Assembly: GCF_029958905.1 (NCBI RefSeq)
Contig: NZ_CP124613.1
Location: 434,001-498,000 of the forward strand
Source of the DNA: Vibrio sp. YMD68
GTDB lineage: Bacteria > Pseudomonadota > Gammaproteobacteria > Enterobacterales > Vibrionaceae
Direction: 5' to 3'
DNA: 64,000 bases
A program made the translations under genes and the position numbers. Positions 29,964 to 55,846 of the stretch are shown piece after piece. Positions within the stretch are counted from its first letter, which is position 1. Each line of letters starts with the position of its first letter. The notes beneath the pieces are model-generated. The model did not search any database. It saw nothing but the letters and a program-made list of their open reading frames with translations, and was not told where the DNA came from.

Positions 29964-31109
29964 TTATTTTCCCGTTAGGCCATAAGGCATATTATTGAAT
30001 AGGTTTTTATGCTGATTAAAGACGGGTGCCGTATGCGGACCCTGCCAATCGAGCAACATGATGGCTAAAACATTACGATGTTCGCCATAACTCAAATCAA
30101 AGTCTCCTTTTGTGGATGGAATCATGCCTTTATCTTTATTCACAGCTCCTTGAATCGCTTGCCTGGTCTTTTCAACGACAGGGTCGTTCTCTAATCCTGC
30201 GAGTAAAAATGCGATCCCCACTTCGGCTATGATGTCTTCTTTGGCGCGTAATAGAATGGTATCGATATTGTCTCGAAAATAATCATAGATCCATTGATGA
30301 CTCTCTTCACTGACAGGCTTTTGATAATATTCCGAGTCGGCAAAAATGATATGCGTCATGCCATAAATCTTGTTTCCAAACTGCTGTGATGTGAGTTTTT
30401 TGTCTTCATTATCTGGATAGGTAGAGCGAAATGCAGCAGTAAATTCCTCAACCACATCTTGTTCTTGTAACTGCTTTAACCAATAGACTTGATTTGCTAA
30501 TTGTGCTGCCCAGGCTTTTATCATGTCAGGGTTTGTTGCATAGAGATTGAAATCGTATCGACGCAAAACTTCACGAAGTTTTTTATCTTCTCGATGCTTG
30601 AGGCCATATTCATTTGCTCTGGCCATTGAACCCAGTAAATCGACACCTAAATACAGGTATTCAGGGTGATGAAGAGTCGTGTTGTAACGACGAATACTTC
30701 TTTCATCCGTTTCCCCAAGGTAGTTTTTTAGTCGGTTTTCTGAATATAAAATGATTTGTTCAGCGGTGTGCACATCTTGTGAAAACTGATTGAGTCGGCT
30801 GGCAACCCTAGCCATGTCACTCCATATAGCTCCAGCGTATTTTTCATTTAAGGTTTGTCGGTACATACGTAAGCCGAAATGTCCTTTTTTAAACGCTGAA
30901 AGAGTATAGAGTTGGGACTCGTAAGTATTCCTGATGATATTTGCAGACTCCTGATAGCGACTTGCTTTAATATCATTATCAGATAACGATGTGGGTATGC
31001 TTCTATTCTCAATAGCGTTTGATTGAGCCTTCACACCATCGACAAAAATAATCCCAATGATTAACAGCCCAGCGGCAATGACTGTAATGATGTTTCTAAC
31101 ATTGAGCAT
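29964..31109 (-). CDS. DUF3541-type exported protein
   Basis: 381 residues. N-terminal signal/anchor (IITVIAAGLLIIGIIFVDG, about 6-24) with cleavage likely after VKA. The rest is mainly helical with many Tyr and Trp, including YESQLYTLSAFKKGHFGLRM, TLHHPEYLYLGVDLLGSMAR and DFDLSYGEHRNVLAIMLLDW. I recall this pattern as DUF3541, found in Vibrio and Shewanella; the assignment is from memory. Function unknown. It sits between two diguanylate cyclase genes and is divergent from the second. Confidence 0.55.
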   Translation of the reverse strand: MLNVRNIITVIAAGLLIIGIIFVDGVKAQSNAIENRSIPTSLSDNDIKASRYQESANIIRNTYESQLYTLSAFKKGHFGLRMYRQTLNEKYAGAIWSDMARVASRLNQFSQDVHTAEQIILYSENRLKNYLGETDERSIRRYNTTLHHPEYLYLGVDLLGSMARANEYGLKHREDKKLREVLRRYDFNLYATNPDMIKAWAAQLANQVYWLKQLQEQDVVEEFTAAFRSTYPDNEDKKLTSQQFGNKIYGMTHIIFADSEYYQKPVSEESHQWIYDYFRDNIDTILLRAKEDIIAEVGIAFLLAGLENDPVVEKTRQAIQGAVNKDKGMIPSTKGDFDLSYGEHRNVLAIMLLDWQGPHTAPVFNQHKNLFNNMPYGLTGK

Positions 31110-31435
31110 GGTATTTCTTCCTTTTTGAGCGTGCTCTCAACGTATCAGCCGTTATAGATTTAGTTGTAAATATTGTGTCAGGGTTTGTTTCGTTAAAGAC
31201 AATTTATTGAGTACAACCTTTCGAGAATCATCGGCCACACAGAGTCGGGAATTGATAAGTAGTAGGTTTAAATGGCTAAGGGAATTTCGCTAAGTAGCCG
31301 TTTTAGTTTACGCAAAATACGATTATACGCCTATTCTAATAGGACTGAATGTGGATAAGGTGGTCATGTGAAGAGTCGGTTTATTCTTTCTATGTTTGTA
31401 AGTGTTTGTCGGATTTTATGTCATCAGAGGTACAC
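31110..31435. other. Divergent promoter region between the DUF3541 and GGDEF genes
   Basis: 326 bases, AT-rich, no convincing operator, hairpin or small gene recognised. It should hold both promoters. Confidence 0.4.
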
Positions 31436-32800
31436 ATGAAGCTGAAAGGACGAAATCGACATTATATTTTTTTGGTTTTTATACTCTATGTCTTCACAGC
31501 TATTGCCTCGATTGAATGGATTAATCGAGGCCAAAATAATTACCTGTACAGTGATCTTTTAACACGAGCAAAAGAAGAGTTGTCGATCGTTCGAGCACAG
31601 CTTGAGGCCGCGATTTTGGCCGATATTTATGAAACGAAAAGCCTCAGTGCATTGATAACCGTGAATCCCGAATTTGATACGAATAATTGGCGAAAGCTCG
31701 CAACGAATATTCTAAGAGAAGGAAAGCACATACGTCTTATAGGGTTGGCCCCCGATGATGTTATACGCTTTGTTCATCCTGAAAAGGGAAATCAACAGGC
31801 TCTCAACTTAGACTACAGAACGGTGCCGACACAGTGGAGTTCTATTCAAAAAGCCCATGATCTTCAAGATGTTTTTATTGCAGGTCCGGTAGACTTAGTT
31901 CAGGGTGGGCGAGCGATAATAGCGAGAATTCCTATATTTACCGACCCTCCGTTTAATAAAGAGTATTGGGGCGTAAGCAGTATTGTCATTGACCTAAATA
32001 CACTTTTCCATAGTGTCGGTGTTGAGTCATTGAGTCATAAGTATCAGTTGGCTATTCAAGGGTTAGACAGTTTGGGAAAATATGGTGAGGTATTTTGGGG
32101 TCGCGCAGCGTATTTGGAGAACGCGTTTGGTTCTGCAACAGTGCGTTTTCCCCATGGAAGTTGGGAGCTCGTTGCATCATTTCGGGAAAATCCGTTGTCC
32201 CATATTCCCTGGTATAGAGCCAATATTGCGCGCTTAATCGGCTACCCTATTACGCTACTATTGACCTTCTCGCTTTTTGTTATTTACCGTCAATATACGA
32301 TGGCGTATAAACGTTCACTTCATGATGATCTTACAGGGTTACCTAATCGTCGCTACTTCATGTATACATTAGAAAACCTATTTCAAGATTGTTCTCAAAA
32401 AGAAACGAATAGTACCTTTGCGGTACTGAATATTGATCTTGATAATTTTAAGGTGATCAATGATACCTACGGCCATGCTGCTGGCGATAAAGTCCTGGTG
32501 GTATGTGCAGAAAGGTTGAAAAGTGTTCTGCGTTCATCCGATCTGGTCGCTCGTGTGGGGGGCGATGAGTTCTTGGTGATTTTGTCTCGCATATCTAACC
32601 CGAATGATGTCGATGTCGTCAATATAGAACTGCATAAAGCACTCTGCCAAACCCCAGTGATTTATGGGCAGCACTTGATCAATATTAGAGTCAGTATTGG
32701 CCATGCTTTGTACAACGATGATTATCCCGATGCTGAAATGCTATTAAAAGTGACCGATGAACGCATGTATCAGCAAAAACGTCGCCAGCTCGGAACATAA
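31436..32800 (+). CDS. CHASE-type sensor diguanylate cyclase (GGDEF)
   Basis: 454 residues from ATG 31436 (5 bases after CAGAGG; the longer frame from 31349 lacks an RBS). Membrane helix at about 9-27, a periplasmic sensor of CHASE type (about 35-255, with LSALITVNPEFDTNNW, IRLIGLAPDDVIRFVHP and WGVSSIVIDL), second helix (about 265-285), then GGDEF (about 295-450): DDLTGLPNRRYF, IDLDNFKVINDTYGHAAGD, RVGGDEFLVIL. The I-site RSSD lies five residues before GGDEF, so it should be active and product-inhibited. Confidence 0.9.
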   Translation: MKLKGRNRHYIFLVFILYVFTAIASIEWINRGQNNYLYSDLLTRAKEELSIVRAQLEAAILADIYETKSLSALITVNPEFDTNNWRKLATNILREGKHIRLIGLAPDDVIRFVHPEKGNQQALNLDYRTVPTQWSSIQKAHDLQDVFIAGPVDLVQGGRAIIARIPIFTDPPFNKEYWGVSSIVIDLNTLFHSVGVESLSHKYQLAIQGLDSLGKYGEVFWGRAAYLENAFGSATVRFPHGSWELVASFRENPLSHIPWYRANIARLIGYPITLLLTFSLFVIYRQYTMAYKRSLHDDLTGLPNRRYFMYTLENLFQDCSQKETNSTFAVLNIDLDNFKVINDTYGHAAGDKVLVVCAERLKSVLRSSDLVARVGGDEFLVILSRISNPNDVDVVNIELHKALCQTPVIYGQHLINIRVSIGHALYNDDYPDAEMLLKVTDERMYQQKRRQLGT

Positions 32801-33425: not shown

Positions 33426-33558
33426 AACCACATGAAATTGTTAGGGTGTCGAGTAATAGGACGACTCAGAGTGCTGTTATGCTGAGTAACCAGCGTAGAG
33501 TTCATCGTAGTCGTGACTGCTGTTGATGTGTTTCTACTGTCTATTTGCATTTTGATAT

Positions 33559-33571
33559 TTGCATTTTGCAA
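33559..33571. promoter_or_regulatory. LuxO binding site upstream of qrr
   Basis: TTGCATTTTGCAA fits the LuxO consensus TTGCA-N3-TGCAA perfectly. A second, partial copy (TTGCATTTTGATA) lies at 33545-33557. Centre about 125 bases upstream of the predicted start, as expected for a sigma-54 activator. Confidence 0.85.
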
Positions 33572-33663
33572 TAAAATCCTATTATGAAACTGCCTTATGC
33601 ATTGTGTTGGCCTGAATCTGGTTGTTTTATCGACAATAAGCCGGTTTTTTCGTGTTTAAAAAG

Positions 33664-33680
33664 TTGGCACACATACTGCT
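33664..33680 (+). promoter_or_regulatory. Sigma-54 promoter of qrr
   Basis: TTGGCAC (-24) - ACATA - CTGCT (-12), one base off the TGGCAC-N5-TTGCT consensus. Predicted start near 33691. Confidence 0.88.
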
Positions 33681-33690
33681 ATATAAAGAT

Positions 33691-33801
33691 CGACCCTTCT
33701 TAAGCCGAGGGTCACCTAGCCAACTGACGTTGTTAGTGAACGCATTTTTGTTCACAGATATATATAGCCAATCCCCACTTATTTTGGGATTGGCTTTTTT
33801 C
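33691..33801 (+). ncRNA. qrr: Qrr quorum-regulatory small RNA
   Basis: About 110 bases. Begins with a hairpin (GACCC...GGGTC), then carries the strictly conserved Qrr core CTAGCCAACTGACGTTGTTA followed by GTGAA and TTCAC, the part that pairs with luxR/hapR-type mRNAs with Hfq. Ends in a terminator hairpin GCCAATCCC/GGGATTGGC plus TTTTTT. Made at low cell density when phospho-LuxO activates sigma-54. Vibrios carry one to several qrr genes; the number (1-5) of this copy cannot be told from the window, so the symbol is the family name. Confidence 0.95.
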
Positions 33802-33837
33802 TTTTCTGGCTGACCATTTTATTCATTTCCTGCTTCA

Positions 33838-33969
33838 GGGCCTCATTAATCAAGGTCTCATTATATCAAGATCTCATTAAATCCAGGGTTCATTAAATCA
33901 GGGGCTAAAGCTGAAAACGCTTAACTGTCGTATGGCTTAACTATCGTATGGCTTCACTCATGTGTATGG
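33838..33969. repeat. Two adjacent degenerate 16-bp tandem repeats
   Basis: First array (33838-33904): about four copies based on TCTCATTAAATCAAGG. Second array (33920-33969): CTTAACTGTCGTATGG, CTTAACTATCGTATGG and a diverged third copy. They fill the gap between the qrr terminator and the end of the DUF3612 gene. Confidence 0.7.
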
Positions 33970-33986: not shown

Positions 33987-35504
33987 TTAATTACCACATG
34001 GCTTATAGCAGCTAGGTTGTCGTGGACATACTGCACCGCGAGAACAAATTACCCTAGCATCCGATTCAATGCCTCTTTCTATCCAGTTGATGTTGAGTAT
34101 TTTAGCAATGGTTGTGAATTCCTTTTTAATATAATGCGGAATAGCAGCACTGCCACCTTTGGAAACGCACAGTGACTTGAGGTCTTCCGCTATAGAGCGC
34201 GCATCTCCTCCTTGCGCATCAATGGCGGGATTAAGATCAATCCCTGCGCATAACACCCGATTGTTACCCGCAGGATCCGTCATATTGACCGATTCACAAC
34301 AATAAATCCTAGGTTCATCGCCCACGTTAAGAATTGAGATTTGCGCTGAACTGTGACTCTTCGGCTCAGAGAGACGTCTGAAAACCGCCCAGTGCTGGCA
34401 AGGGTCGTTGACCTTCCGCATGTTCCCCCAAGGCAGAGGGATACCATTTCCGCGGTACACAGCTTTGAGTTTATTTTGCCCGTATGCATCGAAATAGTGC
34501 CAATGTGGGTAAGGAGAGACGACCGTCATTCGGCGCATCGCCACGGAAGGTGATACCCCCGCTTTCTGATGCACATCAATCTCATAGCCACTGCGATCAA
34601 GCAACTGCCTAAACGGGACTTTCGGGCAGAGTAAAGCACCGGCAAAAAAGCTGGATTCAAAATCACGCCACGCTTGCAGGATATCTTGAGAGTTAAGTTC
34701 AGATGTAGGGCTAGGGGTTGTTGTATCCTCCCAGCTATTGGTGTGCCCCACAGAGAGAACACTTTTTAGCCCTTCTTTTCGGTGCAAAATGCAGTGCCCA
34801 ATGTAAACCGCTAAATCGTACTTGAGACGAGTGGGGTAGTCTCTTAAGATTTCGTTCAAATAGATGGTACTTGGTGCTTCGAAAAATGAAGTCACGAGTT
34901 GTTTTGCACTGACGCCAAGTTCATCAACTACATCTTGAGGCGTTCGAGTTATCCAACGAATTCTGACACCCAGGCTTTTAGCAATGTCGATGAGGTCTTC
35001 AATCGCAAGGTTAAGTCTTTTTAATCCCACCTCTTCGGCGGCACGTTCGAGGTGAGGAAAGTGGTTCTGATTACTTTCTTGATGAGCGCGAATTAATAGA
35101 TGGGCAAATTGACGGCCAGTGATACCAGTTTGTGAGAGCATCTCCGGAATCGCAATTTGTAAAATGTCATTGGAAAATAGAAAACTGGGTTCAAGTGCCA
35201 TTCCACTGATCCCACCTCGATTTCCTTTGTCAGGCGTGATCGCGCTTTGTTCCGGTTCATCATCGAGAAACCAGCGTGGATCTTTTTGAAAAACTTCCGC
35301 AATGACTTCTAGCATATCAACACTGGGTACACGCTTTCCTCGCTCTATCATCGATAGGTAAGAAACCGAAGGGGCGTACTCGGGATTCACCCGTATGCAC
35401 CTCGCAGAGAGATCTTCCATAGTTAAGTGATTGCGTTTCCTCAGGTTTCTAATCTTAGTACCTAGGAAGTGAGACTGACGAACTAAGCTTTTTGATAGAG
35501 ACAT
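33987..35504 (-). CDS. XRE-type regulator with DUF3612 effector domain
   Basis: 505 residues. N-terminal helix-turn-helix (about 12-75; GTKIRNLRKRNHLTMEDLSA and YLSMIERGKRVPSVDMLEVI). The middle (about 100-330) is an IrrE-like/DUF2083-related region, and the Cys-rich C-terminus ends CSRGAVCPRQPSCYKPC. The plan resembles RamB/ScfR regulators of acetate and short-chain fatty acid metabolism; in Vibrio this type is called DUF3612 (from memory). The target here is unknown. The nearest divergent gene (35696) is a likely candidate. Confidence 0.75.
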   Translation of the reverse strand: MSLSKSLVRQSHFLGTKIRNLRKRNHLTMEDLSARCIRVNPEYAPSVSYLSMIERGKRVPSVDMLEVIAEVFQKDPRWFLDDEPEQSAITPDKGNRGGISGMALEPSFLFSNDILQIAIPEMLSQTGITGRQFAHLLIRAHQESNQNHFPHLERAAEEVGLKRLNLAIEDLIDIAKSLGVRIRWITRTPQDVVDELGVSAKQLVTSFFEAPSTIYLNEILRDYPTRLKYDLAVYIGHCILHRKEGLKSVLSVGHTNSWEDTTTPSPTSELNSQDILQAWRDFESSFFAGALLCPKVPFRQLLDRSGYEIDVHQKAGVSPSVAMRRMTVVSPYPHWHYFDAYGQNKLKAVYRGNGIPLPWGNMRKVNDPCQHWAVFRRLSEPKSHSSAQISILNVGDEPRIYCCESVNMTDPAGNNRVLCAGIDLNPAIDAQGGDARSIAEDLKSLCVSKGGSAAIPHYIKKEFTTIAKILNINWIERGIESDARVICSRGAVCPRQPSCYKPCGN

Positions 35505-35695
35505 TTTGTAAAATTCACATTGTAAAATTTTTGTTGTGAAATTGTAGTCAAAAATTCGCTAATCTTCCAAGTAAGCAAAGTCACATATTTACCGAGAACC
35601 GAAAGTAAATTTTGAATATTTGCTCTAGACAGGACAATTTTGGTAGTACTAACCAATGACTACCGCACTGGATGAGTTTTACAGAGGGAAAGACT

Positions 35696-36265
35696 ATGAA
35701 TATGCTTAGATTCGATAAAAAACAGACAAACACAAATAACAAGCCATTTATCGCTGAAGCTGTCTTTGCCGTAGAGACAATCAGTGCCAATCAGCAAAGT
35801 GAAAAACAGGTGAAAGCAAAACAGCTCCTCGATAGTCTATTTCCGCTGGAGAATGGCTCTCATCAAGACGTAACCGGCTATATGATTGATTACCGACATA
35901 TGGTTGCTTATTTTAAAGATGGCTCTCACAGCGGTTTAGAGAGCAATAAACATTTTGTTGCTTACACAGGTGAAAAAGAAGACCCATGCTCTATCTTGTT
36001 CAAAGACGGTAATGGGAGCCATGTGGATGTATTGCTGGGATGTCACAAGGGAACGGGTTGTGTTGAGCTTATTGAGATTGATGATATTCAGCTAGAAACG
36101 TGCACTACCTTTACACAACCAAGAAGTGAAATGGCTGCGATGCGTCACTGGATTAGCCTGATACAAGGTGACGAAAAAGGAAAACCAAGAGCGTGCAGTG
36201 AAGATAAAGAATACACCAGTAAAAGTGGGGAAGACTACACGTTAGAGTATTGCTACAATATGTAA
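35696..36265 (+). CDS. Uncharacterised cytoplasmic protein divergent from the DUF3612 regulator
   Basis: 189 residues from ATG 35696, 7 bases after GAGGG; the ATG at 35672 is upstream of this RBS and not used. A polar, Lys/Asn-rich N-terminus precedes a domain with an internal near-repeat (MVAYFKDGSHSGLES and CSILFKDGNGSHVDVLLG), which suggests two beta modules. Six Cys in the C-terminal half. No signal or membrane segment. No family recognised. Ends with its own terminator. Confidence 0.65.
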   Translation: MNMLRFDKKQTNTNNKPFIAEAVFAVETISANQQSEKQVKAKQLLDSLFPLENGSHQDVTGYMIDYRHMVAYFKDGSHSGLESNKHFVAYTGEKEDPCSILFKDGNGSHVDVLLGCHKGTGCVELIEIDDIQLETCTTFTQPRSEMAAMRHWISLIQGDEKGKPRACSEDKEYTSKSGEDYTLEYCYNM

Positions 36266-41845: not shown

Positions 41846-42736
41846 ATGGCAATGGTACAAGGCAAGTCCTTAAAATACCGCGTATGGGCAACACACATCG
41901 CTATGTGGGCATTCCTGTCGCTTATTATCTTTCCACTACTGATGATCATCGCAATTTCATTACGTGAGGGTAATTTCGCAACAGGTAGCTTAATCCCAGA
42001 AAACCCATCATTGGAGCATTGGAAGTTAGCATTAGGCTTTACGGTCACTCATGCTGATGGATCCGTTACACCACCACCGTTCCCTGTATTAACGTGGTTG
42101 TGGAACTCAATAAAAGTGGCGGGGATAAGCTCGGTTCTTATCGTCGCACTGTCTACGACCTCAGCTTACGCGTTTGCAAGAATGCGCTTTAAAGGTAAAA
42201 ACACTATCCTTAAAGCGATGATGATCTTCCAAATGTTCCCAGCAGTACTTGCTTTGGTTGCTATCTATGCTCTATTTGACAGGCTTGGGCAGTACATCCC
42301 ATTCCTTGGATTAAATACGCATGGCGGCCTGATTTTCTCGTACTTAGGGGGGATTGCTCTTCATGTTTGGACGATTAAAGGATACTTTGAGTCTATCGAT
42401 AATTCTCTAGAAGAAGCGGCGGCTTTAGATGGAGCGACTCCGTGGCAGGCCTTTAGGTTAGTATTATTACCACTTTCAGTGCCTATTCTTGCGGTTGTGT
42501 TTATTTTGTCCTTTATTATGGTGGTCGGTGAAGTTCCTGTGGCATCCATCTTACTTTCTGATGTAAACTCTTACACATTAGCAGTTGGAATGCAGCAGTA
42601 TTTGTACCCTCAGAACTACTTGTGGGGAGACTTTGCAGCGGCAGCGGTGCTTTCTGCACTACCGATTACTATTGTATTTTTACTTGCACAACGTTGGCTT
42701 GTCGGAGGACTTACCGCTGGCGGTGTGAAAGGATAA
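41846..42736 (+). CDS. malG: Maltose ABC transporter permease MalG
   Basis: 296 residues, six helices. EAA motif [20 protein letters not shown] (about 190-209), followed by [11 protein letters not shown]. The C-terminus TAGGVKG is the MalG tail that contacts MalK. Last gene of malEFG; two hairpins follow. Confidence 0.96.
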
Positions 42737-42745
42737 TAATAATTA

Positions 42746-42767
42746 GGGCGACCCTTTAGGATCGCCC
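42746..42767 (+). terminator. Weak terminator hairpin after malG
   Basis: GGGCGA-C-CCT-TT-AGG-A-TCGCCC, a good stem, but followed only by ATTTGTCC, so read-through is likely. Confidence 0.6.
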
Positions 42768-42897
42768 ATTTGTCCTTAACTTAACACTTTCAGGTTTGGC
42801 CGCCGATCCGTTAAGTCTAAGAGCAGTTCTGGCGTTACGCATAGCTGGCTGTTAGCTTGATTCCTTACTAAAAAACTCACTAACAGTTTTTGTAACC

Positions 42898-42927
42898 AAA
42901 ACCCGAGCATCGCTTGGGTTTTTTTAT
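42898..42927 (+). terminator. Second terminator downstream of malG
   Basis: AAAACCCGAGC-AT-CGCTTGGGTTTTTTT with a strong T-tract, 130 bases after the first hairpin and with no gene between. It may end read-through malEFG mRNA or mark the 3' end of a small RNA. The rest of the gap to 43159 shows nothing recognisable. Confidence 0.75.
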
Positions 42928-55370: not shown

Positions 55371-55777
55371 TGTCAGCAGGAAGCAGACACGGAACAGGAA
55401 AGACCCAAGGAAAGGTCATCTTCAGGAAGAAGATATGGTTATTAAGGAAGAATAATCAGCAAGGATTGCAAAGGACATTAGCCGGATGCTAGTAGCAAGG
55501 ATTGTTACCAACTATGTTAATGGACGCTTAAAGGATTAAGATAAATCTTTGTCAGGATGATGAAGTTAGGACACTACTCACGGAAGGGTGATGTAAGTTA
55601 GCCAGGATCGCTAACGGGCAGGATGGCCAAGGACACCGCTAGGATGGCGATGATAAGGAAAGCGCTGAAGGAATCAGCCTACGATCAAGGATTCGATGCA
55701 GGGAGCATCTATCAGTAGCAGGATTGCTGCGAGTAAGAACAGAAAACCCACTGAGCGAAAGCTGAGTGGGTTTTTTC
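55371..55777 (+). ncRNA. csrB: CsrB-type regulatory RNA (CsrA sponge)
   Basis: About 407 bases with no reading frame but roughly two dozen GGA motifs, mostly AGGA or CAGGATG, many set in the loops of small hairpins (for example CAGCAGGAAGCAG, CTTCAGGAAGAAG, GCCAGGATCGC, GCAGGATGGC). This is the CsrA-binding pattern: the RNA titrates CsrA. It ends in the terminator AAAACCCACT...AGTGGGTTTTTT at 55743-55777. Vibrios carry csrB, csrC and csrD; which one this is cannot be decided here. Control by the VarS/VarA (BarA/UvrY) system is supported by the box upstream. Confidence 0.92.
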
Positions 55778-55846
55778 TTATCTCATAAACGGTTCTTATC
55801 TCGTAAACTATTCTTATTTCACAAACTATTCTTATTTCACAAACAA
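55775..55846. repeat. 18-bp degenerate tandem repeat, four copies
   Basis: TTCTTATCTCATAAACGG, TTCTTATCTCGTAAACTA, TTCTTATTTCACAAACTA and TTCTTATTTCACAAACAA, beginning at the csrB terminator T-tract. Confidence 0.85.

Follow-up and report, generated by a model that had tools for sequence, protein, structure and literature searches.

Does the stretch between an acetyltransferase gene and a DUF3612 regulator gene in Vibrio sp. YMD68 encode a functional Qrr quorum-sensing RNA, which of the Qrr paralogues is it, and does it act on the genes around it? A model working from the letters alone (the sequence-only reading) had proposed a complete Qrr locus at 33545..33801 of the window (the whole 64-kb stretch of DNA that was analyzed), with a Qrr core, a 5′ hairpin, a terminator, a -24/-12 promoter, and a perfect LuxO site, and had suggested that the locus ties this replicon to low-density gene control and that the flanking genes may be coregulated.

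Identification of the Qrr gene and its promoter elements

A covariance search with the Rfam Qrr family, RF00378, which the sequence-only reading had suggested as a check, matched window positions 33691-33803 on the forward strand over the full model (1-108) with 103.9 bits (gathering score, 50; E = 6.3e-19). The core CTAGCCAACTGACGTTGTTA begins at 33716, and the RNA is predicted (-36.5 kcal/mol) to fold into a 5′ hairpin followed by another hairpin and by a terminator stem and its U run, so that all three claimed RNA elements were found. The proposed locus is real, with the correction that the RNA match ends at 33803. Protein annotation does not reveal the gene, as had been said; a routine Rfam scan nevertheless detects it. 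Among 61 genomes (its own, same genus, and same order) searched with stricter filters, the Qrr family occurred in 35 of 37 genomes of the genus and in 0 of 24 beyond it. The features of the locus are as follows.

33545..33557, no strand: degenerate second LuxO-like site TTGCATTTTGATA, two mismatches, weak evidence
33559..33571, no strand: predicted LuxO-binding site TTGCATTTTGCAA, -132 to -120, perfect TTGCAN3TGCAA
33665..33679, + strand: sigma-54 -24/-12 promoter TGGCACACATACTGC by pattern, at most one mismatch in 70/79 orthologous loci
33691..33803, + strand: Qrr small RNA gene, very likely the qrr4 orthologue, by RF00378 match and synteny
33692..33713, + strand: 5′ stem-loop 1 in the long form of Qrr2-5, unlike the short Qrr1 form, by fold and alignment with three qrr1 copies
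33716..33740, + strand: conserved target-pairing core CTAGCCAACTGACGTTGTTAGTGAA, unchanged in 79/80 DUF3612 loci
33766..33803, + strand: intrinsic terminator stem and U run, by Rfam match and fold

The -24/-12 promoter was found as claimed, and TGGCACACATACTGC places GG at -25/-24 and GC at -13/-12 relative to the start at 33691. The perfect LuxO site is also present, but its position had to be corrected to 33559-33571, 33545-33557 being the degenerate copy. TTGCATTTTGCAA is the sole perfect TTGCAN3TGCAA in the window, and the sigma-54 pattern that we used occurs there twice, counting both strands; given this rarity, their co-occurrence directly upstream of the Qrr gene is not due to chance. 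Upstream of the orthologous genes the LuxO site was perfect in 64 of 79 loci and had at most one mismatch in 78, two of these upstream regions (L063 and L081) ending early at contig ends. These elements support the predicted sigma-54/LuxO control and the tie to low-density gene control.

Orthology to qrr4

The DUF3612 gene of the window was used as bait in named Vibrio records, and the best 80 of 107 relatives were kept; conservation of DUF3612 in these 80 loci is thus by choice. In 79 of the 80, an identical 25-nucleotide core lay on the opposite strand beyond the 3′ end of the DUF3612 gene, tail to tail with it. In the remaining locus (L073, Vibrio sp. Isolate32) there was no Qrr core beside DUF3612, and three Qrr matches were present elsewhere in the genome. 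According to excerpts of PMC3323551, which also print primers for it, V. parahaemolyticus qrr4 lies in the VPA0199-VPA0200 interval. Of 227 Vibrio genomes, one contained the forward primer (G154, taken to be V. parahaemolyticus on the strength of the primer matches); there, it and the primer-extension (PE) primer map exactly at the Qrr gene adjoining DUF3612 (locus L122); the published reverse primer had no exact match in that stretch. The V. parahaemolyticus qrr4 box recurred with at most two mismatches in four loci, one of them V. harveyi. None of the loci compared matched the published qrr4 box of V. harveyi ATCC BAA-1116 at that threshold; such box matching is suggestive only, and it is the primers that settle the paralogue.

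The core beside DUF3612 and the primer mapping, which amount to the flank comparison with other vibrios proposed by the sequence-only reading, together identify the window gene as the qrr4 orthologue. We conclude with high confidence that the feature is the qrr4 gene of a Vibrio species near V. genomosp. F10, presumably driven by LuxO and sigma-54 and acting by Hfq-dependent target pairing, in a genome that appears to have lost the qrr1 gene upstream of luxO.

A LuxR box is not recognizable upstream of this qrr4

Excerpts of PMC3323551 treat activation of qrr2-4 by LuxR or OpaR as established for V. harveyi and V. parahaemolyticus. A matrix built from 15 boxes printed there, which themselves score 10.2 to 17.7, was partly trained on qrr2-4 boxes of other species and so favors that type. 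With it, no recognizable LuxR/OpaR box was found near -167 or within ~250 bp upstream of the window qrr4 (best score, 3.0). Upstream of the other two Qrr genes of the same genome the scores were 16.8 and 13.6. In 29 of 77 DUF3612-linked upstream regions, the best box scored at least 6 and sat at -185 to -145. The box characterizes the regulation of the qrr4 genes that have been studied and does not define a qrr4, and LuxR feedback at the window gene looks, from its upstream sequence, to have been lost or never gained. Its absence here, against strong boxes at the other two genes, suggests that feedback is divided differently among the copies.

The missing box could also mark a decaying, silent Qrr copy that has been retained only through recent descent, and the gene does have the lowest RF00378 score of the three in its genome, with 2 extra nucleotides in one loop and a lengthened terminator loop. 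We consider decay very improbable: the core is identical to that kept in 79 of 80 loci, the LuxO site is perfect, and the -24/-12 element and terminator stem are intact. True erosion, as seen in the qrr1 genes of near relatives described below, alters the -24/-12 element and, in two of them, the core.

Quorum-sensing circuit and predicted target pairing

The genome encodes luxO, Hfq, RpoN, and, directly after luxO, an Hpt-domain gene, which we call luxU-like from its domain and place alone. A LuxR/HapR homologue begins at G000:C2:2754841. The predicted pairing between the Qrr4 target region and the luxR start region was -27.2 kcal/mol; shuffled targets averaged -17.3 (standard deviation, 3.0), and 0 of 500 were as strong. 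The other two Qrr copies gave -27.0, which 0.8% of shuffles equaled or exceeded in strength, and -27.4, which none of 500 did. Taken together, the RF00378 match, promoter elements, orthology, predicted luxR pairing, and circuit genes indicate that the window feature is an ordinary, probably functional Qrr RNA gene.

At low cell density, phosphorylated LuxO would bind 33559-33571 and drive sigma-54 polymerase at 33665-33679, making transcription presumably dependent on LuxO and RpoN. The resulting RNA of ~110 nucleotides would act with Hfq, on which it is expected to depend, its core pairing with target mRNAs; one example would be the ribosome-binding region of the luxR/hapR homologue mRNA, with repression as the likely outcome.

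Neighboring genes

The following neighbors bear on whether the RNA acts locally.

31349..32800, + strand: CHASE-GGDEF diguanylate cyclase gene, the VPA0198 counterpart by 46% identity and position
33987..35504, - strand: HTH, IrrE-like, and DUF3612 regulator gene, convergent with the RNA (PF12268, 345 bits)

Coregulation of the flanking genes, as the sequence-only reading had suggested, found little support. The DUF3612 gene is convergent with an RNA that has its own terminator, the acetyltransferase gene, which diverges from the Qrr gene, neighbors it in just 6 of 80 loci (best 80 of 107 relatives), and neither flank was prominent in a duplex-energy ranking of pairing with the 49 genes of the window (acetyltransferase 8th, DUF3612 37th), a crude measure that ignores accessibility and gives a weak negative hint only. 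A broader version, in which the Qrr RNA acts chiefly on the acetyltransferase, DUF3612, and GGDEF genes, draws on the GGDEF gene ending 0.9 kb from the Qrr gene and on the action of Qrr RNAs on the GGDEF mRNA vca0939 in V. cholerae. The start region of the GGDEF gene ranked 32nd in the same crude comparison, and with the rarity of the acetyltransferase beside the RNA, we hold chiefly local action to be most unlikely and retain target pairing in the quorum circuit as the preferred reading.

There is independent evidence for quorum control of the GGDEF gene. Four VPA0198 primers printed in excerpts of PMC8215210 map at the start of the GGDEF gene in L122; the same excerpts report repression of VPA0198 by OpaR, with binding upstream of the gene, and excerpts of PMC2628434 report fivefold repression of VPA0198 by LuxR with a reporter in E. 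coli. A LuxR-box-like sequence at 31153-31172 has the second best matrix score in the 64 kb (13.3) and sits in the gap between a DUF3541 gene (29964-31109, - strand) and the GGDEF gene. With the VPA0198 literature, this box makes quorum control of the GGDEF neighbor plausible, through LuxR/OpaR rather than Qrr.

Other features of the window were recorded. Two short imperfect 16-bp tandem arrays (33842-33900 and 33919-33958) lie between qrr4 and DUF3612. At 35672-36265, divergent from DUF3612 and present in 80/80 loci, is a gene for a 197-amino-acid protein whose sole Pfam match is the malate synthase G insertion domain. A MicX small RNA (143.8 bits) is found at 42733-42927, a few kilobases past genes that we take to be malK- and malE-like, and a CsrB-family RNA (79.2 bits) is found at 55459-55783.

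qrr1 is missing upstream of luxO

In the same genome, where 150 of 494 first-look candidates were scored, the search turned up three Qrr genes, each on contig C1 and of the long form. uvrB and luxO lie 272 bp apart on one contig (C2), with the gap read through (L121:4566-4840). This gap has kept a perfect LuxO site; neither a Qrr core (up to 4 mismatches in 17 positions) nor a -24/-12 pattern (up to 2 mismatches) was detected in it, and Rfam found no Qrr around luxO at E values up to 1. We also used model R1, built from Qrr alignment A2, as a detector only, since its RNAalifold structure omits most of stem-loop 1. Run unfiltered, it gave at best 12.7 bits (E = 0.21) at this luxO locus and 86.4, 76.7, 63.8, and 63.7 bits in G155, G068, G198, and G191, respectively, four near relatives carrying qrr1. 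Excerpts of a 2021 paper (PMC8043402) state that multi-qrr species "always" encode qrr1 upstream of luxO and describe Qrr1 as ancestral, as having a dedicated regulator (LuxT) in some species, and as lacking aphA among its targets. Our literature search, which covered mainly open-access papers, found no report of natural qrr1 loss.

Of the 227 Vibrio genomes, 209 had luxO at E values up to 1e-190. For 120 of them, drawn from among the listed luxO matches with many near-identical LuxO scores skipped, we surveyed a 961-bp stretch spanning the start of luxO; G009, G034, and G002 were additional positives, and with YMD68 itself the genomes examined number 124. The qrr1 core was present with at most 5 mismatches in 112 of the 120 and absent in 8 (G025, G148, G108, G204, G019, G175, G075, and G122). 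By full-length exact locus matches, six of the eight are V. genomosp. F10, V. ostreicida, Vibrio sp. 99-70-13A1, V. mytili, V. sagamiensis, and V. injensis. Unfiltered R1, run on all but G122, scored at best 16.1 bits (E = 0.029, in G025) and at most 14.9 bits in the rest. All eight genomes have Qrr matches at other places, three or four apiece, and the LuxO site before luxO is perfect in six and has one mismatch in two.

An assembly or search artifact could in principle produce such absences: a large share of the surveyed genomes are draft assemblies, Rfam gives lower scores to Qrr1, the genome searches extended to 150 out of several hundred candidates, and the G025 locus (L125) has the weak unfiltered match given above. 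For the genome studied here we consider this explanation very unlikely, because uvrB and luxO share a contig with the gap read through, the near relative G025 (V. genomosp. F10) has the same kind of gap, and the unfiltered model reaches 64 to 86 bits where qrr1 exists.

Relocation of qrr1 was considered separately and rejected: the three copies of the YMD68 genome are of the long form, as are, by eye, two of the four copies of G122, which lie off the luxO contig; the low-scoring copies of G075 and G175 may include relocated ones.

Probable repeated loss of qrr1

Absence of qrr1 in these genomes is best read as loss, because the gene is nearly universal in the survey and is described as ancestral. 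On a tree of uvrB 3′ ends with 111 rows, from which 13 of the 120 surveyed stretches, none of them negatives, were dropped because the motif for the uvrB end was not found, absence needs six changes, at least five of them forced by well-supported branches, although one short gene makes a weak species tree and the changes carry no direction. Three relatives with LuxO identities of 95, 93, and 93% to that of YMD68 (G068, G191, and G198; loci L126, L127, and L128) have eroded qrr1 genes. Only four of the 112 copies have three mismatches in the -24/-12 element, these three among them, and a G-to-T change in the core is common to G191 and G198. The GG and GC of the element are still present in all three, so these eroded copies may be active.

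These data make it likely that qrr1 is dispensable in multi-qrr vibrios, with about six independent losses and three or four Qrr genes kept elsewhere. As the LuxO site stays, evolution would have uncoupled luxO autorepression from Qrr1 production, and the near relatives would represent loss in progress. With qrr1 lost, qrr4 and its two sister copies on the same contig would have to carry Qrr function in this lineage. The LuxO site in the uvrB-luxO gap was presumably retained because LuxO also represses luxO, an autorepression mentioned in excerpts of PMC3482212.

We regard the qrr1 losses as mattering more than the qrr4 gene, and the missing LuxR box as of moderate interest. Natural genomes that lack qrr1 in several lineages and keep the LuxO site offer a ready comparison for the purpose of Qrr1, and also allow one to ask whether the retained site mainly serves luxO autorepression.

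Closely spaced same-strand Qrr copies were seen in other Vibrio records (L095:7632 and 8525; G003:C2:681865 and 682260; G007:C2:611985 and 612260).

Comparison with known Qrr genes

The window gene shares the core and general plan of Qrr1, which is encoded upstream of luxO, but its stem-loop 1 is long where that of Qrr1 is short, and no Qrr1 was found in its own genome. It differs from V. parahaemolyticus and V. harveyi qrr4 (the VPA0199-VPA0200 intergenic region) in having no recognizable LuxR/OpaR box near -167 and in its upstream acetyltransferase gene, which is not found in those loci; it resembles them in its place beside DUF3612, its core, its sigma-54 promoter, and its LuxO site. Compared with the RF00378 family as a whole, the likeness is full length and nothing essential differs, the window copy having slight insertions in loop 2 and in the loop of the terminator. 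As a qrr4 gene, it extends a well-studied family by a single further genome.
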